A stretch of 64,000 bases of DNA from Alphaproteobacteria bacterium. GTDB lineage: Bacteria; Pseudomonadota; Alphaproteobacteria; JANQMY01. Within the stretch, counting starts at the first letter, position 1. Each line of letters starts with the position of its first letter. Position numbers and translations under genes: made by a program. This document shows, piece by piece, positions 13,726 to 54,471 of the stretch. The stretch is taken from NCBI GenBank assembly GCA_028289425.1, contig JANQPL010000003.1, forward strand, positions 62,001 to 126,000. Direction: 5' to 3'. The notes under the pieces are model-generated. The model searched no databases. It was not told where the DNA came from and saw only the letters and a program-made list of their open reading frames with translations.

Positions 13726-13808
13726 CTAAGCCATCCCGCTCCCCCGTCCCAACCACCCCAAGGGTACCCTGGTTCGGGCGGTTGGGACGGGGGAGCGGGA
13801 TGGCTTAG
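13726..13808. repeat. Long GC-rich palindrome, copy 1 of a dispersed family
   Basis: Two perfectly complementary 29-base arms flank a 25-base centre with AAGGGTACCCTGGTTCGGG. Arms begin CTAAGCCATCCCGCTCCCCC. The same inner sequence recurs at 34835 and, inverted, at 51042. It sits upstream of yebC and downstream of the TIGR00282 gene, both on the minus strand. No poly-T follows either arm, so a simple intrinsic terminator is unlikely. Confidence 0.9.
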
Positions 13809-26752: not shown

Positions 26753-27940
26753 ATGAGCAAAGACTATTCAAACGCCATGGAAATCGATCAGCCGAACCGG
26801 TTCTTAAGCCGGATGCTGCTGTTCTTGCTGGCCGTGGGCGCCATCTGTTTTCTATTGGCCGCCCCGCTAGAGCGCGCCTTCAATGCCAATCTGGCGTTCA
26901 ACAGCCTGATTGCCGCCGTGCTTTTCATTGGGATCATCCATTCCTTCCGCGAAATCATTCTGCTGCGGCCGGAGATCAAATGGGTCAACAGTTTCCGCAA
27001 GACCGATCCGGGCCTGGTGCTGCCCAGCACGCCGGTCCTGCTCGCGCCCATGGCGACCATGTTGGGGGAACGGTCGGGCCCGGTAACACTCAATGCGTTG
27101 ACCATGCGCTCGATCCTGGATTCCATTTCCACGCGCCTGGACGAAAACCGAGACCTTTCCCGCTATATGATCGGTCTGCTGATTTTTTTGGGTCTGCTGG
27201 GCACGTTTTGGGGATTGCTCGGCACGGTGTCATCCGTGGGAGATACAATTGGTTCCTTGTCGGCCCCGGAGGATGGCGAAGACGGCGCCGCCGTCTTCGC
27301 AGCACTCCAAGAAGGTCTTACCCGGCCACTCGCCGGAATGGGCACGGCCTTTTCATCATCCCTGTTCGGACTGGGCGGATCGCTCATTCTTGGCTTCCTC
27401 GATCTGCAAGCGGGCCAAGCGCAAAACCGGTTCTACAACGATCTGGAAGAGTGGCTTTCCACGGTCACCCGGATCACCGGCACCACAGGCGTTGCCGAGG
27501 GCGACCAAGCAGCGCCCGGCTATATCTCGGCGTTGCTGGAACAGACCGCCGACAACATTTCCGCGCTTCAGATGGCCGTGGAAAAAACCGTCGAAGACCG
27601 GACCAGTGCCAATTCCCATCTCATGGAGCTGACGGAAAAGCTCGCCACCCTCACCGACATGATGCGCACGGAACAACAATTGCTCATGAAAGTGGCGGAA
27701 GGCCAAATCGAGCTCAAACCCGTGCTCGAGCGCCTGGGGCACCAAAAAGTCAATGGCGGATTTGACGACGTGACAAGCGGCCATATCCGCAATATCGACG
27801 TTTCTTTGAAGCATATGTTGGAAGAAGTGGCCGACGGGCGCGAACAGGTCTTGCGCGACCTTAAAAACGAGATCAAAGTTTTGACAAAAACCGTGGCCAA
27901 TCTGGAAGGAAGGCAGGGAACCGGGGGCACAGGGGGTTAG
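26753..27940 (+). CDS. MotA/TolQ/ExbB-type proton channel subunit with cytoplasmic coiled-coil tail
   Basis: 395 residues with membrane helices near 22-40, 50-66, 138-160 and 190-215. The channel signature is GLLGTFWGLLGTVSSVG plus GMGTAFSSSLFGLGGSLILGF. The C-terminal 150 residues are largely helical coiled coil (LTEKLATLTDMMRTEQQLLMKVAEG). Paired with the MotB-like gene that begins at the next base. Such efp/suhB-linked pairs are common in alphaproteobacteria and distinct from tolQR and flagellar motAB; role unknown. Confidence 0.85.
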   Translation: MSKDYSNAMEIDQPNRFLSRMLLFLLAVGAICFLLAAPLERAFNANLAFNSLIAAVLFIGIIHSFREIILLRPEIKWVNSFRKTDPGLVLPSTPVLLAPMATMLGERSGPVTLNALTMRSILDSISTRLDENRDLSRYMIGLLIFLGLLGTFWGLLGTVSSVGDTIGSLSAPEDGEDGAAVFAALQEGLTRPLAGMGTAFSSSLFGLGGSLILGFLDLQAGQAQNRFYNDLEEWLSTVTRITGTTGVAEGDQAAPGYISALLEQTADNISALQMAVEKTVEDRTSANSHLMELTEKLATLTDMMRTEQQLLMKVAEGQIELKPVLERLGHQKVNGGFDDVTSGHIRNIDVSLKHMLEEVADGREQVLRDLKNEIKVLTKTVANLEGRQGTGGTGG

Positions 27941-34032: not shown

Positions 34033-34734
34033 CTACTGCGACACCTCGCCAATCTCCGCGGTGAGTTGCTGCAGCCGCTTCTTAATCGCGGTTTCATATT
34101 TGCCGGTCACAACGCCGGCAAGGAGGGTCAGCCGAAGGAGTTTTTGCCGGGCCAGCAGCGCTTCGTCGCTGATTTCACCCGCCGCCCAGCGGGTGATGAT
34201 GGCGTAAATCGCCACAGCGGCGTCGCTCGCCAGCAGGTCGATGTTGACCCAGGGGAGCAGCGCCCCTTCCCGCTTTAGCTCCTTCAAGTAGCGGAGGTTT
34301 CCGGCCGCCGCCTGTCCGTGCAGCGTGTCGCGGATCCGGCTGTTAGTATCTTTGCTGAAATAGATGGTGAGCATCTTTTTGGCGTACGCCGGAACCCGCA
34401 GGATCTCTGCGTTGGACAGCTCCTGGGCCCGTTCAATCCGGGCGAGAACCGACCCCTCATCTTTCGGCACCAGCTTTTCGATTCGCTCGACAAACACCGC
34501 CACCACGGCCTGGGCGACCAGCTCATCTTGGCTTTCGAATATGTTGTAGAGGGTCGCCAGGGCCACGCCGCTGCGCTTGGCCAGGTCGCGCATGGTGAAC
34601 TTGCTGTCTTCTTCCACCAGCATCTGCCGTGCGGTCTCCAATATGCGCGCCCGGCGTTCGGCCATGGCATCGCTGGCGTAGCCGGCGCTTCGCCCTGCCT
34701 GTTCTGGTCTGATGGTGGTGCCCGTATCGGCCAT
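34033..34734 (-). CDS. TetR-family transcriptional regulator
   Basis: 233 residues. The N-terminal HTH is RARILETARQML...FTMRDLAKRSGVALATLYNIFESQDELV (28-73); the helical ligand domain follows. Divergent from the epoxide hydrolase gene with a palindrome ATTGGAAC-AC-GTTCCAAT between them, a layout typical for self- and neighbour regulation. The same palindrome core is found twice before the P450 gene. Confidence 0.93.
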   Translation of the reverse strand: MADTGTTIRPEQAGRSAGYASDAMAERRARILETARQMLVEEDSKFTMRDLAKRSGVALATLYNIFESQDELVAQAVVAVFVERIEKLVPKDEGSVLARIERAQELSNAEILRVPAYAKKMLTIYFSKDTNSRIRDTLHGQAAAGNLRYLKELKREGALLPWVNIDLLASDAAVAIYAIITRWAAGEISDEALLARQKLLRLTLLAGVVTGKYETAIKKRLQQLTAEIGEVSQ

Positions 34735-34787
34735 ATTGCCTTTATCGCTCCTTGCCCTTGAGTTTCACCATAACAGATTCTATAAAG

Positions 34788-34805
34788 ATTGGAACACGTT
34801 CCAAT
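34788..34805. promoter_or_regulatory. Putative TetR operator at the tetR/epoxide hydrolase junction
   Basis: 18-bp palindrome ATTGGAACACGTTCCAAT, perfect apart from its central AC. It is 54 bp from the tetR start. The core GAAC-N2-GTTC is shared with the sites at 35858 and 35877. Confidence 0.75.
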
Positions 34806-34834
34806 ATTAAATGATGTCAGTATGAGTTCCCTCA

Positions 34835-34907
34835 CCTCCCCGCTCCCCCGTCCCAACCACCCCAAGGGTACCCTGTTTCGGGTGGTTGGGACGGGGGAGC
34901 GGGGAGG
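34835..34907. repeat. Long GC-rich palindrome, copy 2 of the dispersed family
   Basis: Arms of 28 bases match perfectly (left begins CCTCCCCGCTCCCCCGTCCC) round AAGGGTACCCTGTTTCG. Compared with copy 1 the outer arm differs (CCTCCCC against CCATCCC) but the partner arm has changed to match. It lies in the divergent gap between tetR and the epoxide hydrolase gene, 34 bp before the latter, and would fold in its 5' leader. Confidence 0.9.
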
Positions 34908-34940
34908 CCGGGGTGACAGGAAATTTGACGGGAGGCACAC

Positions 34941-35369
34941 ATGTCCATCGAAGACCAAAGCATCCAAACCGTGCTCGATTTTTTGAAGGCGCTGGAAGGC
35001 GGCACGAAGCAACATGTGCGCGATGCCTACGACAATTATTTCGCGGACAACTGCATCTATCAGAATTCCGGTCTGCCGGACATGGATAAGCCCGCCACCA
35101 TGGAATTCTTCTTCAGCGACATGGAGGGCGAACAGGGCATTGTCAAACTGGTCGCCGACATTACGCACATCGCCGCCAAGGGGAATGTGGTGTTCACGGA
35201 ACGTGTGGATCATCACTTCGACAAGGACGGCAACGATATTCTCACACCGTCGATTTGCGGCATCTTCGAAGTAGAGAACGGCAAATTTAAGCGGTGGGCG
35301 GACTATTTCGACCCTAATCCCATGCTGCATCTGTTCGGTATGGACGAAAGCCAGCAAGCCGCGGAATAG
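34941..35369 (+). CDS. Limonene-1,2-epoxide hydrolase-type enzyme
   Basis: 142 residues of SnoaL/NTF2-like fold. The catalytic set of limonene epoxide hydrolase is present: Y40 and N42 (IYQNSG), R88 and D90 (FTERVDHHF), and D121 (FKRWADYFD); the R-x-D spacing and 31-residue gap from the first to the second Asp equal those of LEH (Arg99, Asp101, Asp132). It hydrates epoxides to trans-diols by a one-step mechanism. GGGAGG precedes the ATG. First gene of a plus-strand operon with a PaaI thioesterase; both lie behind the TetR operator. Confidence 0.88.
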   Translation: MSIEDQSIQTVLDFLKALEGGTKQHVRDAYDNYFADNCIYQNSGLPDMDKPATMEFFFSDMEGEQGIVKLVADITHIAAKGNVVFTERVDHHFDKDGNDILTPSICGIFEVENGKFKRWADYFDPNPMLHLFGMDESQQAAE

Positions 35370-35388
35370 GTCGTAGATTGAAAGCATC

Positions 35389-35805
35389 ATGACCGACATT
35401 CCAGAGGGCTTTAAGCCCGCCCGCTTCGACGGCCAATATCTCCACCATGTGGGCCCCTATTACACCAAGAAAACCGACGACACGGTGTTGGTGGGCCTGC
35501 CGGTGAGCGACCACCACATCAATTATGTGGACATCGCCCATGGTGGCATTCTGACCACGCTCGCGGATGTAGCTTTGAGCTTTCAGGTCTTCTTGATCGA
35601 ACGGCCTGCGCCGATGGTCACCACCGTCAGTCTGACCACGAATTTTTTGGGCGCGGTCAAGCTGGGCGATTTTTTGATTGCCGATGGGTACATCGACCGT
35701 TTGGGAAAACGCCTGGCCTACACCCATGGCACCATTCGGCGCGGCGACGATCTGGTGATGACCATGAACGGTGTTTTCAACGTACAGCGTCGATCCAAAA
35801 CATAA
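35389..35805 (+). CDS. PaaI-type hot-dog thioesterase
   Basis: 138 residues. The acyl-CoA thioesterase fold is indicated by NYVDIAHGGILTTLADVALSF with the catalytic Asp region, and VTTVSLTTNFLGAVKLGDFLIADG. Hydrolyses acyl-CoA thioesters; substrate unknown. 19 bp after the epoxide hydrolase gene, so co-transcribed. Confidence 0.88.
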   Translation: MTDIPEGFKPARFDGQYLHHVGPYYTKKTDDTVLVGLPVSDHHINYVDIAHGGILTTLADVALSFQVFLIERPAPMVTTVSLTTNFLGAVKLGDFLIADGYIDRLGKRLAYTHGTIRRGDDLVMTMNGVFNVQRRSKT

Positions 35806-35857
35806 CCTCCTTACCAGAAGCGCAGGATTCGGCGGGAAATTCCATCTTGCCAAAAAT

Positions 35858-35871
35858 TAGAACGTGTTCTA
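35858..35871. promoter_or_regulatory. Putative TetR operator 1 before the P450 gene
   Basis: TAGAACGTGTTCTA: perfect palindrome arms around GT, matching the GAAC-N2-GTTC core at the tetR junction. Centre 19 bp from the next site. Confidence 0.7.
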
Positions 35872-35876
35872 GAATA

Positions 35877-35890
35877 TAGAACATGTTCTA
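35877..35890. promoter_or_regulatory. Putative TetR operator 2 before the P450 gene
   Basis: TAGAACATGTTCTA, a perfect 14-bp palindrome 55 bp before the P450 start codon. Two tandem sites suggest cooperative control by two dimers. Confidence 0.7.
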
Positions 35891-35944: not shown

Positions 35945-37192
35945 ATGGCGCAAGCGCTCGCCGAACAAAGTCTGCTGAACCCGCAGACTCAGCAGTGCCC
36001 CTTCAGCTTTTACAAACAAGTGCGCGAAGAAGCGCCCGTGTACTACATGCCCGACATGGGGATGTATCTGATCACCTCCTACGATCTGATGCGCGACGTG
36101 CTGAAGGACTCGGAGACCTTTTCCAACCGGATTCCGGAATTGGGCGCCAACTCAATGTCCCACTTCGAAAAGGCGGAGAAAATCATCAAAGAAAAAGGCT
36201 TTGGACGGTTTATGCCGACCATCGTCAATAACGACCCGCCCGGCCACGGCGTTTACCGCGGTCTGGTGGACCAAGCGTTTCGCGCCGGCCGCATCCGTCA
36301 GATGGAATCCTATGTGGAACAAATCGTCGGTGAGCTGATCGATTCGTTCGAGAACGATGGAGCCTGCGAAGCCATTTCTCAATTCGCCGTGCCCGTGCCC
36401 ATGTATGTGATCGCCGACCAACTGGGCGTGCCGCGGGAAAATTTCCAGCGTTTCAAAGAATGGTCCGATGCCTGGGTCGCAGGGCTTGGTTTGCCGAAGC
36501 CGGAAGCAGAGATGGTGGAAGCGGCCGAGCTGATCGTGGAAATGCAGCATTACATGATCGAGCGCATTCATGAGCGCCGCAAAGACCCCCAGAACGACAT
36601 GCTGTCGGACTTGGCTCAAGCCACTTACAATGGCGAGCGGCCCTTGGAAGACCGGGAAGTGTTGTCAATCGTCGAGCAGATCCTGGTGGCCGGGAACGAA
36701 ACGACAACCAATGGCATCGGCAATGGCTTACTGACGCTTGCGAAAAACCGCCACGTGCAAGACCGGATTCGGACAGCCCCGGACCTCATCACCAAATTCA
36801 CCGAGGAAGTGTTGCGCTGGGAATCGCCGGTTCAAGGGCTATTCCGGTATGCCAAAAAGAATACGACCCTAGCGGGCGTTGAGATTCCGAAAGGATCGCG
36901 CCTGATGGTCCGCTATGCCGCCGCCAACCGGGACCCTTCCAAATTCGAATGCCCCGAAGATTTGAATATCGACCGCAAGAATAACGGGGCGCATCTGGCC
37001 TTCGGCTCCGGCATTCATCACTGCGTGGGATCTCAGCTTGCGCGGGTGGAGATGCAAGCAAGCTTCAAAGCGTGGCTCGCCCGCTTTTCGTCATTTGAAC
37101 TGGACCAGCCCGAAGACACCATTCAATATCATTTGAGCTTTGCGTTGCGGGGGCCCCAATCTCTCAAACTAAAATTTGCCGCTGCGAACTAA
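35945..37192 (+). CDS. Bacterial cytochrome P450
   Basis: 415 residues, class I soluble type. I-helix AGNETTT, K-helix EEVLRWES, and haem loop FGSGIHHCVGSQLAR with Cys360. An N-terminal substrate-recognition stretch ends in NNDPPGHGVYRGLVDQAFR, as in CYP families that act on terpenes, sterols or fatty acids. Ferredoxin and reductase partners are not in the window. Start follows GGAGAGAAAAC. Controlled by two GAAC-N2-GTTC sites just upstream; 16 bp before the Rieske oxygenase. Confidence 0.94.
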   Translation: MAQALAEQSLLNPQTQQCPFSFYKQVREEAPVYYMPDMGMYLITSYDLMRDVLKDSETFSNRIPELGANSMSHFEKAEKIIKEKGFGRFMPTIVNNDPPGHGVYRGLVDQAFRAGRIRQMESYVEQIVGELIDSFENDGACEAISQFAVPVPMYVIADQLGVPRENFQRFKEWSDAWVAGLGLPKPEAEMVEAAELIVEMQHYMIERIHERRKDPQNDMLSDLAQATYNGERPLEDREVLSIVEQILVAGNETTTNGIGNGLLTLAKNRHVQDRIRTAPDLITKFTEEVLRWESPVQGLFRYAKKNTTLAGVEIPKGSRLMVRYAAANRDPSKFECPEDLNIDRKNNGAHLAFGSGIHHCVGSQLARVEMQASFKAWLARFSSFELDQPEDTIQYHLSFALRGPQSLKLKFAAAN

Positions 37193-37208: not shown

Positions 37209-38486
37209 ATGGGACAACTTAACGTCAAACAAATCCGTGATCTGATGGAATACGAAGCCAGCCGGACGGCGCCGCCGGAAGGTTTCCCCAACCTGCCGGA
37301 TCTGCCGGGCGGGCGGTATACGGATCAACGGTTTTATGATCTGGAGAAGGAGCACATTTGGCGTAAGTCATGGCTCTTTGCCGGACACATTGACGAGATC
37401 CCCGAACCGGGCTGCTTTATGTTGTGGGAAAACGCCGGCCAGCCCGTGGTGATCGTTCACGCAGAAAGCGGCGACGTAAACGCCTTCTACAACACCTGCA
37501 GTCATCGCGGCGCGCCGGTCGTCACCGACCAAAAAGGCAAACGCAAATTGTTGGTCTGCCGCTACCATGGTTGGAGTTATACCCATGACGGCGATCTTGT
37601 GGCCATTCGCGATCCGGAGGATTTCGGCAAGGATTTTGATTTCAAATGCCGCGGCTTGACCAAAGTGCGCTGCGAGCGGTTCGGCAACTTAATCTGGGTG
37701 AATTTCGACCCCGACGCCATGTCCCTGCTCGACTGGTTGGGACCCATCGCCGATGAGTGGAAGGAATTTCAGTTCGAAAATTGCCGCCTGGCCCAGCGCC
37801 ATACCTGGGACCTCAATTGCAATTGGAAGATTGCCATGGAGGCGAACACTGAGGTCTATCACGTCAAAAGCATTCACCCGAATACGGTCTCGCCCATCTT
37901 GGACGACCGGCGGAATGTGAACACGTTCTACCCGAACGGACATGGGCGCATGATTGCGCCGGCACCAGGCGGTGAGAAACTACCAGGCGGTATGCGGCCC
38001 GCCCCCCATGTGGGCGAAATCGAAACGGTCGGCGAGATTGGCCGCACCTGCACCCAGTCCTACGGCATTTTCCCCAATTGGGTGTCGCCGTTGAGTAACT
38101 TCTACATCCCGCCGCTTCTGTTCTGGCCGCTTGCCATCAACAAAACCCGGTTCGAGACCTTTACCTTCGCGCCCCAATGGGGCGACGGCCCCGCCCCCGA
38201 TTTGTGGACGCAAGAGGGCAAGGAACTCAGCCAGGTGTTGCAGGAAGATACGGAGTTTGGCCTGTGGATTCAGAAGTCAGTCGAATCCTATGGCTTCAAG
38301 GGCGTACCGCTCAGCTATCAAGAAGCGCGCATCTACCACTGGAACCAAGCCGCCGACAAAATGATCGGTATCGAGAACATTCCGCCCGAGCTGCGGGTGC
38401 AACAGGTGATCGGCGATGAATGGATCTATCCCAACGATCCACGGGTCGCGTTGATGGAGAAATCAAATGCCGTCGGTGTCGATTGA
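37209..38486 (+). CDS. Rieske non-haem iron oxygenase, alpha subunit
   Basis: 425 residues. Rieske [2Fe-2S] ligands C97-H99 (NTCSHRGA) and C117-H120 (CRYHGWSY); mononuclear iron His218 and His223 in EANTEVYHVKSIHPNT. Belongs with aromatic ring-hydroxylating and related monooxygenase alpha subunits. There is no beta subunit gene next to it; the following SRPBCC gene overlaps by 20 bp. Substrate unknown. Confidence 0.93.
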   Translation: MGQLNVKQIRDLMEYEASRTAPPEGFPNLPDLPGGRYTDQRFYDLEKEHIWRKSWLFAGHIDEIPEPGCFMLWENAGQPVVIVHAESGDVNAFYNTCSHRGAPVVTDQKGKRKLLVCRYHGWSYTHDGDLVAIRDPEDFGKDFDFKCRGLTKVRCERFGNLIWVNFDPDAMSLLDWLGPIADEWKEFQFENCRLAQRHTWDLNCNWKIAMEANTEVYHVKSIHPNTVSPILDDRRNVNTFYPNGHGRMIAPAPGGEKLPGGMRPAPHVGEIETVGEIGRTCTQSYGIFPNWVSPLSNFYIPPLLFWPLAINKTRFETFTFAPQWGDGPAPDLWTQEGKELSQVLQEDTEFGLWIQKSVESYGFKGVPLSYQEARIYHWNQAADKMIGIENIPPELRVQQVIGDEWIYPNDPRVALMEKSNAVGVD

Positions 38487-38898
38487 CCGCATTATAGACT
38501 TCGCCCCGGACACAGTTTGGGCCGTGCTGGCAGACTTCGGCGCCTTTCGCGAGTGGGCCATGGGCGGTGAAGGCTCCATTAAAGTGGAAGGCGACGGCCC
38601 CGGCATGGTGCGACTGTTGGACGTGCCTGGTATGGGCGAAATAGCGGAACGGCTGGACAAGGCGGATGGGGATAATCACCATCTGGTTTACTCCCTGTTC
38701 CACGGCAATCCGCTGGGCATGGCGCGCTACACAGCCAATGTGCATCTTTCACCCGAAGCCGGGGGCAAGTGCAAAGTTTCCTGGCACGGAGAATTCGACG
38801 CCATGCCGGACGCCGACCCGGCAACGGTGGGTGAGAACTTGCGCGGCTCCTATAACGGCATGACCGATGCGCTTGCGGCTTATCTGGCCGCCAAATAG
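38467..38898 (+). CDS. SRPBCC (START-like) small protein
   Basis: 143 residues with a helix-grip fold: IDRIIDFAPDTVWAVLADFGAFREW, GMVRLLDVPGMGEIAERLD, CKVSWHGEFDAMPD. Polyketide cyclase/dehydrase-like lipid-binding family. It overlaps the Rieske gene, so the two are translationally coupled; it might shuttle or fold a hydrophobic substrate (inference). Confidence 0.82.
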   Translation: MPSVSIDRIIDFAPDTVWAVLADFGAFREWAMGGEGSIKVEGDGPGMVRLLDVPGMGEIAERLDKADGDNHHLVYSLFHGNPLGMARYTANVHLSPEAGGKCKVSWHGEFDAMPDADPATVGENLRGSYNGMTDALAAYLAAK

Positions 38899-38955: not shown

Positions 38956-39774
38956 ATGTCACAAACGGACCAACAAACCATCTTCATCACCGGCGGTGCC
39001 AGCGGCATGGGCCGCGCCACGGCGGAATTGTTCGCAGGCAAAGGATGGTTCGTGGGCATCTTCGATGTGGACGAACAGGGCCTGAAAGAAACCGCCGCCA
39101 GGATCGGGGAAGACAATTGTCTTGCGCGCCGATTGGATGTGACCGACACGCAAGATTTCATGGCCGCCATGTCGTCCTTCAACGAACGGACGAAGGGCCG
39201 CATGGACATCATGTTCAATAATGCGGGGATCGCCCCCAGCGCCTGGTTCGACGAAATGCCGCTGGAACAGATGCGCCGGATCATCGATATCAATGTGATG
39301 GGCGTGATTATCGGAGCGAAACTGGCCCTGCCTTTATTGCGCGACACCCCCAATTCGATCTGCATCAGCACGTCGTCTTCCGCTGCCACTTACGGCCATG
39401 CGCTGCTGGCCGTTTACAGCGCGTCCAAATTCGCCGTGAAAGGTCTGACCGAAGCGCTGAGCCTAGAGTTTGGGCGCTTTGGCGTACGCACGGCGGATAT
39501 CCTGCCCGGCTGCATCGACACCCCCATGCTGCGCAATGCACTGGCCGCGCCAACCGGGCAACCGTTTACCGAGGAATTGTTCGCCAACCTGCCGCAAGAC
39601 GGTGCCTACCGTTTGGTGCCCGTTTCCGCCATTACCGATGCGGTTTGGGGCGCGTACAATTCCGACCAAATCCATTGGTATGTGCCGGAAGAGGTGGGCG
39701 ATATCGACCGCCTCAAAGGCACCGACTTCAACGCGGCGCGGGATGAAACGAAGGCGTTTTCGTTTCGGGAGTAG
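38956..39774 (+). CDS. Short-chain dehydrogenase/reductase
   Basis: 272 residues. Nucleotide site TGGASGMGRATAELF, NNAG at NNAGIAPSAW, the Ser of SSSAATYG and active-site Y-x-x-x-K in YSASKFAVKG. Fifth gene of the P450 operon (57 bp after the SRPBCC gene), probably oxidising an alcohol produced by the oxygenases. Confidence 0.93.
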   Translation: MSQTDQQTIFITGGASGMGRATAELFAGKGWFVGIFDVDEQGLKETAARIGEDNCLARRLDVTDTQDFMAAMSSFNERTKGRMDIMFNNAGIAPSAWFDEMPLEQMRRIIDINVMGVIIGAKLALPLLRDTPNSICISTSSSAATYGHALLAVYSASKFAVKGLTEALSLEFGRFGVRTADILPGCIDTPMLRNALAAPTGQPFTEELFANLPQDGAYRLVPVSAITDAVWGAYNSDQIHWYVPEEVGDIDRLKGTDFNAARDETKAFSFRE

Positions 39775-50261: not shown

Positions 50262-51020
50262 ATGGGACGAAATTGGTTAACAAAAACTTACCGTTCCGAC
50301 GATTTGTTAAACATAAAAGGCATAGATGGCTGCAAAGGGGGCTGGCTGGTGGCGCAAACGCGCTTCTCGCCCGCGTCTGCTCAGCACGCGGAGCACCGGC
50401 TGTATGTGGCAGAAAACTGGGAAAAAGCGGTCGAAAAAGCGAACCTGGTTGCGGTCGATATGCCCATCGGATTGGCCGATTTTGGTAAACGCCAATGCGA
50501 CGTGCTGGCTCGAAAAAAATTGGGAAAAAAGAGATCGTCGAGTGTTTTTTCGCCCCCAAGACGGGGCATGCTTCGATTTGAGACGTATGCGGACGCAAAT
50601 CGTTTTGGAAAGGAACAGGGTCCCAAAGCGACACACGGCGGCGGATTATCCAAGCAGGCCTGGAACATTACGCCCAAAATCAAAGAAATCGACGATTGGA
50701 TCACACAGCGCCGCCAGTCCCGCGTGTTTGAGGCGCATCCGGAATTGGCCTTTGCCGCGCTGAATGGCGGCATCCCCCTGCCCCCGAAGAAAAGCAGCGA
50801 GGGTGTGCAAGCGCGGCGGCGATTGCTCGCCAAACATGGTTTCGAAAAACTTACACAGCAAGCGGACGAAATTCCAAAACGCTTGGCCGCGCCGGACGAT
50901 GTGCTCGATGCCGCCGCACTCGTTCTGGTCTGTCAGCGTATCTTGCTTGGCCACGCAACTTGTTTGAGTGATCCCAGCCAAAGCGACGCCAAGAACCTGG
51001 CCATGGAAATTTGGTATTGA
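50262..51020 (+). CDS. DUF429 family protein (RNase H-like predicted nuclease)
   Basis: Residues GIDGCKGGW near 20-28, LVAVDMPIGLADFGKRQCD, SSSVFSPPRRGML, GLSKQAWNITPKIKEID, VFEAHPELAFAALNG and PDDVLDAAALVLVCQRI match DUF429, whose molecular role is unknown. The family normally starts a few residues before GIDGC, so the TTG at 50304 may be the real start; the ATG would overlap the promoter of the candidate sRNA. Confidence 0.82.
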   Translation: MGRNWLTKTYRSDDLLNIKGIDGCKGGWLVAQTRFSPASAQHAEHRLYVAENWEKAVEKANLVAVDMPIGLADFGKRQCDVLARKKLGKKRSSSVFSPPRRGMLRFETYADANRFGKEQGPKATHGGGLSKQAWNITPKIKEIDDWITQRRQSRVFEAHPELAFAALNGGIPLPPKKSSEGVQARRRLLAKHGFEKLTQQADEIPKRLAAPDDVLDAAALVLVCQRILLGHATCLSDPSQSDAKNLAMEIWY

Positions 51021-51041
51021 GTCTTTGTTTCAGACTACCAG

Positions 51042-51115
51042 GCCAGCCCGCTCCCCCTTCCCAACCACCCGAACCAGGGTACCCTTGGGTGGCTGGGAAG
51101 GGGGAGCGGGCCGGC
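51042..51115. repeat. Long GC-rich palindrome, copy 3 (inverted) of the dispersed family
   Basis: The centre reads GAACCAGGGTACCCTTGGG, the reverse complement of copies 1 and 2. The G-C pair in CCCCCGTCCC/GGGACGGGGG of the others is replaced by T-A (CCCCCTTCCC/GGGAAGGGGG), a compensated change. Two mismatches remain in the arms. Sits between convergent genes. Confidence 0.85.
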
Positions 51116-51131
51116 TAGGTGTTCAACAAAG

Positions 51132-51320
51132 CTACTTCTTAAACACCGCGTCGGCCGCGGACATGGAAGACTCCTTCGATCTCATCAGCGCCTCACAGCG
51201 CGCAATTTCCTCCTTGAGGGCCACGATGCGTTCTTCCAACTCCGAAATCGAAAAGGTGGACAGATCTTCCTGGGCCCAGCTCACCGACTTCTTTTTTTCT
51301 TCCAGGTCGTCCGTATCCAT
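51132..51320 (-). CDS. DUF1192 small protein
   Basis: 62 residues, MDTDDLEEKKKSVSWAQEDL then FSISELEERIVALKEEIARCEALM, an N-terminal acidic part and a coiled coil. Alphaproteobacterial family of unknown role, usually next to the quinone oxidoreductase found here. Start at 51320 chosen over an upstream reading. Confidence 0.8.
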   Translation of the reverse strand: MDTDDLEEKKKSVSWAQEDLSTFSISELEERIVALKEEIARCEALMRSKESSMSAADAVFKK

Positions 51321-51437
51321 AGGGCTTCTCCCGTTGCCATTTGTGTTAGTTTGAGCCGCGAGGCCCCTTGGACGCAAGAGCCAAGATCGCAAAACGAGCG
51401 CTCACTAAAAGCGCCGACGACACCTACAGGAGTTCCC

Positions 51438-52442
51438 ATGTCCGCAAACCTGCCATCTGAAATGACCGCCATTGCCATCACCGAACCAGGAGGGCCGGAG
51501 GTGCTGAAGCCGACCAGATTGCCCATGCCCACACCCGGCGAAGGTGAAGCGCTCATTCGTGTGGAAGCGGCAGGGGTCAACCGTCCGGACGTGTTTCAAC
51601 GGATGGGGTTTTATCCGCCACCCCCCGGCGCGCCGGACACACCGGGTCTGGAGGTGGCAGGCGAAGTTGTCGCTGTCGGCTCAAACGTCAACAACTTTTC
51701 GATTGGCGACCGCCTGTGCGCGCTGGTGGCAGGCGGCGGTTACGCAGAATATTGCGTTGTACAAACAGCCGCGGCCCTGCCCGTGCCCGCACCCATCAGC
51801 GCCGTCGAAGCAGCCGCCATTCCCGAAACCTTTTTCACGGTGTGGACCAACGTGTTCGATCTGGGCGGCTTGAAAGCGGGCGAACATTTTCTGGTTCACG
51901 GGGGCACCAGCGGTATCGGCACCACCGCTATCATGCTGGCCAAAGAGTTTGGCGCGAAAGTTTACGCGACCGCCGGGTCGGCGGAAAAGTGTCAGGCGAT
52001 GACCGATCTCGGGGTGGACCGGGCGATCAATTATAAAGAAGAGGATTTTGTCGCCGCTCTCCAAGATGAAACCGGCGGCAAGGGCGTCGATGTGATCTTG
52101 GACATGGTGGGCGGCGATTACATTCCCAGGAACCTAAAGCTGCTCGGCTTTAAAGGGCGCTTGGTGTTCATCGCCTTCTTGGGCGGTTCTCGCGCCGAAG
52201 CGGACTTTATGCAGATCATGCTGAAGCGGCTCACTGTCACCGGGTCCACCTTGCGCGCCCGCGCCGTGGAAGAAAAAGCGCAAATCGCCAACAGTCTGGT
52301 GAAAAATGTCTGGCCGCTTTTCGATCAGGGGAAGATCAAGCCGGTGATCTACAAGACCTTCCCTCTGGCCCAGGCGGCGGAGGCCCATGCGCTGATGGAA
52401 TCCAGCACCCATATCGGGAAGATCGTGCTGGCGACTGAATAA
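51438..52442 (+). CDS. NADPH:quinone oxidoreductase, zinc-free MDR family (PIG3-like)
   Basis: 334 residues from ATG at 51438 preceded by AGGAG. Medium-chain reductase fold: AAGVNRPDVFQRMGFYPPPPG, GLEVAGEVVAVG, GYAEYCVVQ and the NADPH loop HGGTSGIGTTAIMLAK. No catalytic zinc ligands. Divergent from DUF1192 with 117 bp between. Confidence 0.92.
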   Translation: MSANLPSEMTAIAITEPGGPEVLKPTRLPMPTPGEGEALIRVEAAGVNRPDVFQRMGFYPPPPGAPDTPGLEVAGEVVAVGSNVNNFSIGDRLCALVAGGGYAEYCVVQTAAALPVPAPISAVEAAAIPETFFTVWTNVFDLGGLKAGEHFLVHGGTSGIGTTAIMLAKEFGAKVYATAGSAEKCQAMTDLGVDRAINYKEEDFVAALQDETGGKGVDVILDMVGGDYIPRNLKLLGFKGRLVFIAFLGGSRAEADFMQIMLKRLTVTGSTLRARAVEEKAQIANSLVKNVWPLFDQGKIKPVIYKTFPLAQAAEAHALMESSTHIGKIVLATE

Positions 52443-52457
52443 GCAACCCTTCTTAGG

Positions 52458-52616
52458 CGTCATGCCAGGGCTTGTCCCTGCCTGCCTTCGCCGAAGCGAA
52501 GCTTCTGCTTCGCGCAGGCAGGGCATCCGGAGCCACAAGCCGCCGAAGAAAAGCGCGACCCCCTACCGTTTCGCCCTGGATCCCAAGGACGCGCTAACGC
52601 TTGCCTTGGGATGACG
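52458..52616. repeat. CGTCAT...ATGACG palindromic intergenic element
   Basis: Starts CGTCATGCCAGGGC and ends CCTTGGGATGACG. Inner hairpins: CCTGCCTG with CAGGCAGG across a GCGAAGC/GCTTCTGCTTCGC segment, and TCCCAAGG with CCTTGGGA. Accounts for the first half of the 340-bp gap before trcR. Confidence 0.6.
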
Positions 52617-52697
52617 GATTCACCTGTGGGTGGCCACGCCTCAATAATTATTCCCTTTCGGCCAAAAGAGGCCTATATACCGGTGCAACGTACCAAG

Positions 52698-52728
52698 ACG
52701 GCCCCTCAGTGAGGGGCCGTAAGTTTTT
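52698..52728 (+). terminator. Intrinsic terminator or attenuator before trcR
   Basis: Perfect 10-bp stem ACGGCCCCTC/GAGGGGCCGT with a 3-base loop, then AAG and five T. It is 55 bp before the trcR ATG, so it could stop readthrough from the quinone oxidoreductase gene or regulate trcR from its leader. Confidence 0.7.
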
Positions 52729-52782
52729 GAACAATCGAATTTGCCTATGCGGGCCCGCGTCAGGAGGCCCCAAGGAGGAAGT

Positions 52783-53649
52783 ATGGCTCAGCCCCTTATG
52801 CCGAAAGCGACCGCCGTTTGGCTGGTCGACAACACATCCCTAACCTTCGATCAAATCGCAGAATTCTGCGGCCTGCATCCGCTTGAGGTAAAGGGCATCG
52901 CCGATGGGGACGTGGCCCTGGGCATTAAGGGCTTGGACCCGGTGGCCGGCGGCCAATTGAGCCGCGAGGAAATCGAAAAAGCTCAGGAAGACCCGAAAGC
53001 ACGGCTCAAAATGCTGAAAAGCAAGCATGTGATCCCGCCGGCACCGCCCCGCAAGGGCCCCAAATACACACCGCTTTCCCGGCGCCAGGACCGGCCCGAT
53101 GCCATCGCCTGGCTGGTGCGCAATCACCCGGAACTCTCAGACACCCAGATCTCGAAGCTGGTGGGCACCACCAAGCCGACCATCGAATCCGTCCGTAATC
53201 GGACCCATTGGAATTCGGCCAACATCAAACCAGTGGATCCGGTTACCCTGGGCCTGTGCACCCAAATGGAATTGGACGGCGCCGTTCAGAAGGGGGCGGC
53301 ACGGCGCGAGCGGGAAGCGAAGAAACGGGCCGCCGCGGAGAAGGCCGGCACCCTCAAGCCGGCAGCGGAAACGGTTGGCACGGCAGCGGCGGTCGAGGTG
53401 CCGATCGCTGCAGCGCCGGAGCCGGCGGCCGACCCCACGGCACCGGCCTCGGACGAACCGCAAATGCCCGCCGGCTGGGAAACCCCATCGGCACCGAAAG
53501 AAGAAGAGCCTGTGCTCAGCGCAGAAGATGTGTTCGGCAAAACGCCGGAACCGGATGAGCCGAAAGACGACAAGCCCGCCGAAGAGGATGTCGAGGAGAA
53601 AGTCGACGACGACAATCCGTTTGCCCAACTTAAGAAGCTGCAGGAATAG
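52783..53649 (+). CDS. trcR: Cell-cycle transcriptional regulator TrcR (DUF1013)
   Basis: 288 residues after AAGGAGG. Two conserved HTH-like segments: KATAVWLVDNTSLTFDQIAEF and DAIAWLVRNHPELSDTQISKL with TKPTIESVRNRTHWN. The C-terminal 90 residues are a low-complexity Ala/Glu/Pro tail. In Caulobacter this family associates with RNA polymerase and cell-cycle promoters. Alphaproteobacteria-specific. Confidence 0.87.
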   Translation: MAQPLMPKATAVWLVDNTSLTFDQIAEFCGLHPLEVKGIADGDVALGIKGLDPVAGGQLSREEIEKAQEDPKARLKMLKSKHVIPPAPPRKGPKYTPLSRRQDRPDAIAWLVRNHPELSDTQISKLVGTTKPTIESVRNRTHWNSANIKPVDPVTLGLCTQMELDGAVQKGAARREREAKKRAAAEKAGTLKPAAETVGTAAAVEVPIAAAPEPAADPTAPASDEPQMPAGWETPSAPKEEEPVLSAEDVFGKTPEPDEPKDDKPAEEDVEEKVDDDNPFAQLKKLQE

Positions 53650-53664
53650 GACGGCAGCGTTCTT

Positions 53665-54471
53665 TTATTTCTGAGCCGCGAGGTTGTCGTTCAGCACCAA
53701 GCGCCCGCCGTCGGCGTAAAGCGTCTGGCCGGTCATGTAGCTTGAATCTTCCGAGATCAAGAATTGCGCGATCGACGCGATTTCGTCCGGGTCGCCGATG
53801 CGCCCCAGCGGCGTGCGCGACAGCACCCGGTTCCGCGCCTCGCTGCTGGACAGTTCCGTTTTCATGTATTCGGTCATGACGCTGCCGGGGCCGACCGCAT
53901 TCACGCGAATGCCGCTGGGCGCAAGCGATAGGGCCATGACCTTCGTGAGCTGATTGACGCCCCCTTGGCTCACGGAGAACGAGGCTTCTTCCGGGGCGGC
54001 GACCACCGCGTTGATCGACGAAATGTTGACGATGCTGTAAGGGGTGGCACCGCCGGACAGGCCGTCGCTTTTTTCGATCTGCTCGATCATTTGCTTGGCG
54101 ATCGCCTGGGCGGTGAGAAAAGCGCCTTTCAGATTGATGCGGATGACTTCATCGAAGTCTTCTTCCTTCAATGACAGAAAGTCACTCCGTACACGAATGG
54201 AGGCATTGTTGACCAGCGCATCGATCCGCTGATAGTTGTCGAGAGCTGCGGCGATAAGATTGTGCACGTCGAGCCGTTCGCCTACATCGCAATTGACGAA
54301 AATTACATCGCCGCCGTTTTCGCGAATGGTGTCCGATGCCGATTTGGCCGCAGCCTCATCCGTGTCCGCAATGACCACCTTCGCGCCGTTTTTGGCGAAA
54401 CGGCGGGCGCACGCCAACCCGATGCCCGTGGCACCGCCTGTTACGACCACAACCATTCCAGCAATCGACAT
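53665..54471 (-). CDS. Short-chain dehydrogenase/reductase
   Basis: 268 residues from ATG 54471. TGGATGIGLACARRF, NNASIRVRSDF, SINAVVAAPEEASFSVSQGGVNQL; note that the usual Y-x-x-x-K motif reads FSVSQ here, so the catalytic Tyr and Lys are replaced by Phe and Gln. That suggests either a non-catalytic or a differently working SDR. The C-terminal DPDEIASIAQFLISEDSSYMTGQ looks like a classical SDR. Substrate unknown. Confidence 0.85.
   Translation of the reverse strand: MSIAGMVVVVTGGATGIGLACARRFAKNGAKVVIADTDEAAAKSASDTIRENGGDVIFVNCDVGERLDVHNLIAAALDNYQRIDALVNNASIRVRSDFLSLKEEDFDEVIRINLKGAFLTAQAIAKQMIEQIEKSDGLSGGATPYSIVNISSINAVVAAPEEASFSVSQGGVNQLTKVMALSLAPSGIRVNAVGPGSVMTEYMKTELSSSEARNRVLSRTPLGRIGDPDEIASIAQFLISEDSSYMTGQTLYADGGRLVLNDNLAAQK

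Follow-up and report, generated by a model that had tools for sequence, protein, structure and literature searches.

Do the palindromes beside a tetR gene and in front of a neighbouring cytochrome P450 operon mark one regulon, and does the TetR protein encoded there govern it? The locus lies in a 64,000-nucleotide stretch of DNA (the window) that forms part of contig C14 of the 5.42-Mb alphaproteobacterial genome G000. On the minus strand, an ORF at 34033–34734 encodes the presumed repressor TetR (233 aa), whose residues 31–75 are covered by Pfam TetR_N (PF00440) with 30.8 bits against a cut-off of 24, placing it in the TetR family. The plus strand carries the genes of a limonene-1,2-epoxide hydrolase (LEH)-type protein of 142 aa (34941–35369; PF07858, 63.9 bits, cut-off 24), a hotdog (4HBT) thioesterase of 138 aa (35389–35805; PF03061, 51.3 bits), a cytochrome P450 of 415 aa (35945–37192; PF00067, 124.2 bits) with an 89% orthologue in genome G001, a Rieske non-haem iron oxygenase of the α-subunit type of 425 aa (37209–38486; PF00355 and PF00848), a START-like (Polyketide_cyc2) protein (38467–38898; PF10604, 76.2 bits) and a short-chain dehydrogenase (SDR) of 272 aa (38956–39774; PF00106, 152.7 bits). 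These domain matches agree with the gene labels of the original prediction. The solved LEH 9gol matches the 34941–35369 product with an E value of 3.3e-18, and alignment with solved LEHs shows that the TER-D and W-DYFD stretches, which presumably hold the catalytic residues, are kept.

A check of the window sequence revealed all three predicted palindromes exactly in place. Putative operator 1, ATTGGAACACGTTCCAAT (34788–34805), is common to the tetR and LEH promoters; putative operator 2, TAGAACGTGTTCTA (35858–35871), lies in the spacer of the P450 promoter and on its −10 hexamer; and putative operator 3, TAGAACATGTTCTA (35877–35890), is situated directly 3′ of this −10. Operators 2 and 3 form a tandem pair with the anticipated centre-to-centre distance of 19 bp. 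The three sites had been described as alike in core and size; the core is indeed shared, but the arms differ, being TTGG at the tetR site and TAG at the P450 pair. The core, GAACNNGTTC, occurs five times in the window, compared with a mean of 1.1 in shuffled sequences, none of 100 of which reaches five. The remaining two matches, at 26794 and 37919, are inside ORFs (26753–27940 and the Rieske gene, respectively) and are without flanking arms, so that no site precedes the GMC or ABC genes, as had been claimed. The form TNGAACNNGTTCNA is found three times, against a mean of 0.05 and a maximum of 1 in 300 shuffles, and when the two intergenic gaps alone were shuffled, at least two matches arose in 0 of 20000 trials. 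A window scan for TNNAACNNGTTNNA with a single mismatch gave 16 matches where 14.1 are expected; this is chance level, and sites with one mismatch, such as that of genome G092 below, consequently rest on their context.

The palindromes are closely associated with promoter-like hexamers. The tetR promoter, TTGGAA-N16-TAGAAT (34777–34804, minus strand), has its −35 covered by operator 1, so that tetR has a palindrome at its own promoter, as is characteristic of the TetR family, to which its product would putatively bind. The promoter of the P450 operon, TTGCCA-N17-TAGAAT (35847–35875, plus strand), agrees with the consensus at 10 of 12 positions. Six promoters from five genomes, the window included, share one layout: a −35 of the TTG type (TTGNNN) and a −10-like hexamer are separated by a spacer of 17 bp, and the operator occupies this spacer and touches the −10-like hexamer. 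Where two sites stand in tandem (four promoters), the second one is directly 3′ of the −10. The operator's position in the spacer indicates that a bound protein would repress by blocking RNA polymerase. In the window and in G001, the LEH promoter has the same register, with a weak −35 (TCTATA in the window). A hairpin repeat at 34835–34907, with 31-nt arms that are 97% complementary, lengthens the LEH leader, and the gap from operator to LEH is 135 bp in the window versus 24 bp in G001. The repeat is not part of the regulon. Because of the poor −35 and the repeat lying between operator and gene, control of LEH is the weakest link in assigning all the units to a single regulator.

The original prediction proposed a genome-wide motif scan as a check, and the outcome depends on the form of the motif. 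The bare 10-bp core is not enriched in G000, with 136 sites versus 192 for a reversed-pattern control; it is uninformative and was rejected for scanning. The extended operator, by comparison, is concentrated at this locus. G000 contains seven TNGAACNNGTTCNA sites (control 16), of which three are found here and the other four all fall within open frames of at least 251 codons. For the 18-mer ATTRGAACNNGTTCYAAT with up to two mismatches, three of the four G000 sites are at this locus and the fourth (two mismatches; C9:12346) is inside an open frame of 499 codons, while all three G001 sites are at the orthologous promoters. At three mismatches, the counts of 27 (G000) and 34 (G001) are at the level of the controls (42 and 31), which suggests that the regulon is probably small and local. 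The motif is present at none of the 18 paralogous P450 loci examined (L035–L052; five further paralogues, without a locus, were left out), and the idea that it is a general feature of P450 promoters was rejected on these grounds.

Comparison with relatives provides a form of footprinting. In G001, the single genome of the same genus that was compared, a near-operator, ATTGGAACGCGTTATAAT, lies between tetR and LEH on contig C542, and a tandem pair with the 19-bp spacing of the window is found upstream of the P450 gene on contig C56, so that linkage of the two sites in G001 is presumptive. The helix-turn-helix residues 45–66 of TetR are identical in the two genomes. Relatives of TetR were present in 7 of the 385 genomes searched across the class (E ≤ 1e-22) and, within the family to which G340 belongs, in 8 of 10 (E ≤ 1e-25). 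In G340, which like G390 is of another family and where TetR is 42% identical, tetR and the P450 gene diverge around a tandem pair spaced by 20 bp. The P450 gene of G390 has a tandem pair (20 bp) upstream of it and tetR overlapping its end; two further operators in this genome are single, one situated 83 bp upstream of a Rieske gene (39%) and one before the gene of an SDR that shares 43% identity with the SDR encoded within the LEH unit of G001. G092, of a third family (TetR 49%), carries TATAACGTATTCTA, a one-mismatch site located by eye, with tetR on one side and, on the other, a Rieske gene that shares 86% identity with that of the window. The recurrence of the same operator at these rearranged loci suggests that membership of the regulon has been kept while gene order has changed.

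Tandem operators precede four of the seven P450 orthologues of at least 60% identity (those of G000, G001, G340 and G390) and are missing at the other three (G040, G167 and G263), in whose genomes the P450 gene and the nearest TetR relative are far apart or on other contigs. The TetR relatives of the G040 group are 37–41% identical, and in the six surroundings read, no TNNAACNNGTTNNA was found near tetR: L093 has one far from the gene, and L095, L096, L097, L099 and L100 have none. The recognition helix reads VASATLY in these TetRs and VALATLY, VATGTLY or VATATIY in the operator-bearing ones.

The G001 footprinting, in which the best sites are three out of three, together with the rearranged loci, the fixed position in the spacer and the absence of the motif from all 18 paralogous loci, fits one TetR regulating itself and both the LEH–thioesterase and the P450–Rieske–START–SDR units. 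The one-regulator reading of the original prediction is thereby well supported, with binding as a prediction, and we consider it very probable that TetR is a self-regulating repressor with a small dedicated regulon. It is appropriate to weigh this against other explanations. That the palindromes arose by chance has a negligible probability: the bare core is common, as its genome-wide counts show, but the intergenic shuffles did not yield even two sites of the extended motif, and conservation of positions and spacing in G001 refutes the idea.

It is improbable, though less remotely so, that these are real operators of another regulator, a second TetR or one of IclR type, for which the adjacent tetR is merely one target. 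TetR proteins are numerous in the genome, a search at E ≤ 0.001 giving 12 matches, and sites of IclR-family group 2, given as TGRAACA-N1-2-TGTTYCA (PMC13273656), can look alike. Against this, the operator lies beside or drives a TetR gene of the same group in G340, G390, G092, G001 and the window; the closest paralogue (33% identical, contig C4) has a different palindrome of its own, ATTGTATCATGGTACAAT, in G000 and G001 alike; and the centre between AAC and GTT in that IclR consensus is wider than N2. Whether TetR might instead be an activator, or a dual regulator, at some sites also deserves consideration. Some TetR-family proteins activate; FasR, an activator by its NCBIfam description, scores 19.8 bits with the window TetR, and the −35 of the LEH promoter is weak. 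We regard this as very improbable, since every operator overlaps either a promoter hexamer or the spacer, which is the position of a repressor.

For TetR as a repressor, the arrangement suggests the following mechanism. One TetR dimer would bind each palindrome (T-N2-AAC-N2-GTT-N2-A). A dimer at operator 1 would cover the tetR −35 and, in the divergently oriented LEH–thioesterase promoter, the −10 side. Before the P450 operon, two tandem dimers would be accommodated, one filling the 17-bp spacer and touching the −10 and the other directly following, and we propose that RNA polymerase would then be excluded. Release of the repressor, which would switch on the two units together with tetR itself, would be brought about by a small molecule, probably either an acyl-CoA intermediate or a hydrophobic substrate of the P450–Rieske pathway.

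What appears to be new here is the identity of the operator with the one used by KstR of mycobacteria, which is also one of the protein's closest relatives of solved structure. KstR (Rv3574) is a mycobacterial TetR protein that represses cholesterol catabolism; its operator, TAGAAC(N2)GTTCTA or, more loosely, TnnAACnnGTTnnA, overlaps the −10, the protein is autoregulated and two operator copies occur in one intergenic region (PMC1995591). Its inducer is given as 3-oxocholest-4-en-26-oyl-CoA (PMC8700777). The arms of the P450 pair match the KstR operator letter for letter, as TAGAAC-N2-GTTCTA, and the site at tetR agrees with the looser form (PMC1995591); all three sites match TnnAACnnGTTnnA, and they are its only exact matches in the window.

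The protein comparisons are less simple. When a profile of nine related TetRs was run against the PDB, KstR chains ranked first (1.2e-12). With a profile of the four operator-bearing TetRs (A3), KstR is second (8.8e-07), behind 3bjb. The profile of five same-group TetRs without operator (A4) matches KstR better than A3 does, at 49.8 bits. Resemblance to KstR is therefore insufficient by itself to account for the shared operator, and its value as proof of the operator is weakened. Profiles A1 and A3 do not include the G390 TetR, because of a stop near the start of its matched stretch, and profiles A1 and A4 omit the TetRs of G263 and G387, whose helix regions are near copies of the G167 one. 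The KstR match of the window TetR covers mainly its N-terminal half, and with the NCBIfam KstR model (NF033703), it scores 26 bits over residues 21–130, where the cut-off is 280. Assignment as KstR was rejected because of this score and the closer match of the operator-less TetRs. The regulons appear to differ too: there are three operators here versus 16 or 31 further KstR motif instances in two mycobacteria, and the KstD-, KshA- and HsaA-like genes of G000 do not appear to be among the targets of the present TetR. The protein appears to be KstR-like at the DNA and a member of another TetR branch. We offer as a conjecture, on balance doubtful, that an alphaproteobacterial KstR-like branch retained or converged on the KstR operator and controls a small mobile regulon (P450, Rieske, SDR and epoxide hydrolase), sensing a sterol- or terpenoid-like substrate as its CoA thioester, as KstR does, with genes reshuffled between bacterial families and membership constant.

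A structure model of TetR, built from two sequences, is nearly all-helical, with a mean pLDDT of 73, and is of low confidence. Its Foldseek matches in the PDB are TetR proteins, with query TM-scores of 0.33–0.55 among the 50 matches listed; given the low confidence, model and matches were of no use as a clue to the ligand. TetR had no match in the plasmid records searched.

A steroid or terpenoid substrate for the P450 operon is a guess, since the scans gave no such operator upstream of a row of genes resembling steroid-catabolism genes elsewhere in G000. This row, on contig C12 (~50400–53900; L107), consists of neighbouring KstD-, KshA- and HsaA-like genes whose products are below the NCBIfam cut-offs, the HsaA-like protein scoring 306 bits against 450; three KshA_C proteins of G000 are over their cut-off. 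The 38 kb holding these genes contain one TNNAACNNGTTNNA match (L112:9726) and no 18-mer site with up to three mismatches among the matches listed. As an observation in its own right, the row points to possible steroid ring degradation in this alphaproteobacterium.

The locus is an ordinary kind of local TetR regulon with an unexpectedly familiar operator. For an uncharacterised set of oxidative genes, it supplies what a search for the substrate by inducer screening requires: a regulator, an operator open to testing and a boundary. Identity with the KstR box is a warning, in that scans for KstR-regulon motifs outside Actinobacteria would pick up this regulator, and also an opportunity, in that the group offers a way to study the divergence of operators and recognition helices among TetR proteins. 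Searches of the literature on the motif, KstR and this gene set listed no description of the present regulon. A parallel is offered by EdcR, the TetR repressor of oestradiol genes in Caenibius tardaugens, also of the Alphaproteobacteria, which acts on two operons, and probably on its own gene, by way of palindromes that overlap the −10 (PMC8700777). A search of the window for the EdcR palindrome, TnnCnnTACnAnTnGTAnnGnnA, with up to two mismatches allowed gave no match.

Several further features of these genomes were observed. The paralogue on C4 belongs to a second TetR–P450 module with its own operator (G000:C4:238296-240277; L017 and L052), in which tetR likewise faces the P450 gene across an 18-bp palindrome; its TetR is 33% identical to the present one, and the palindrome, conserved in G000 and G001, has the core GTAT/GTAC, not GAAC/GTTC. 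The SDR gene inside the G001 LEH unit (L032:365-1222), whose G390 relative carries an operator of its own, is an extra gene between LEH and the thioesterase, missing from the window (35369–35389). An additional G001 gene between tetR and the ABC transporter (L032:2511-3803), which we take from its sequence to be patatin-like, is likewise missing from the window. Finally, the hairpin before LEH is one of three window copies (34835–34907, ~13739–13795 and ~51051–51106) of an interspersed GC-rich repeat (CTCCCCCGTCCCAACCACCC ... GGGTGGTTGGGACGGGGGAG); G001 is without a copy at the place orthologous to the pre-LEH one, and the repeat has eight exact copies in G000 and nine in G001.
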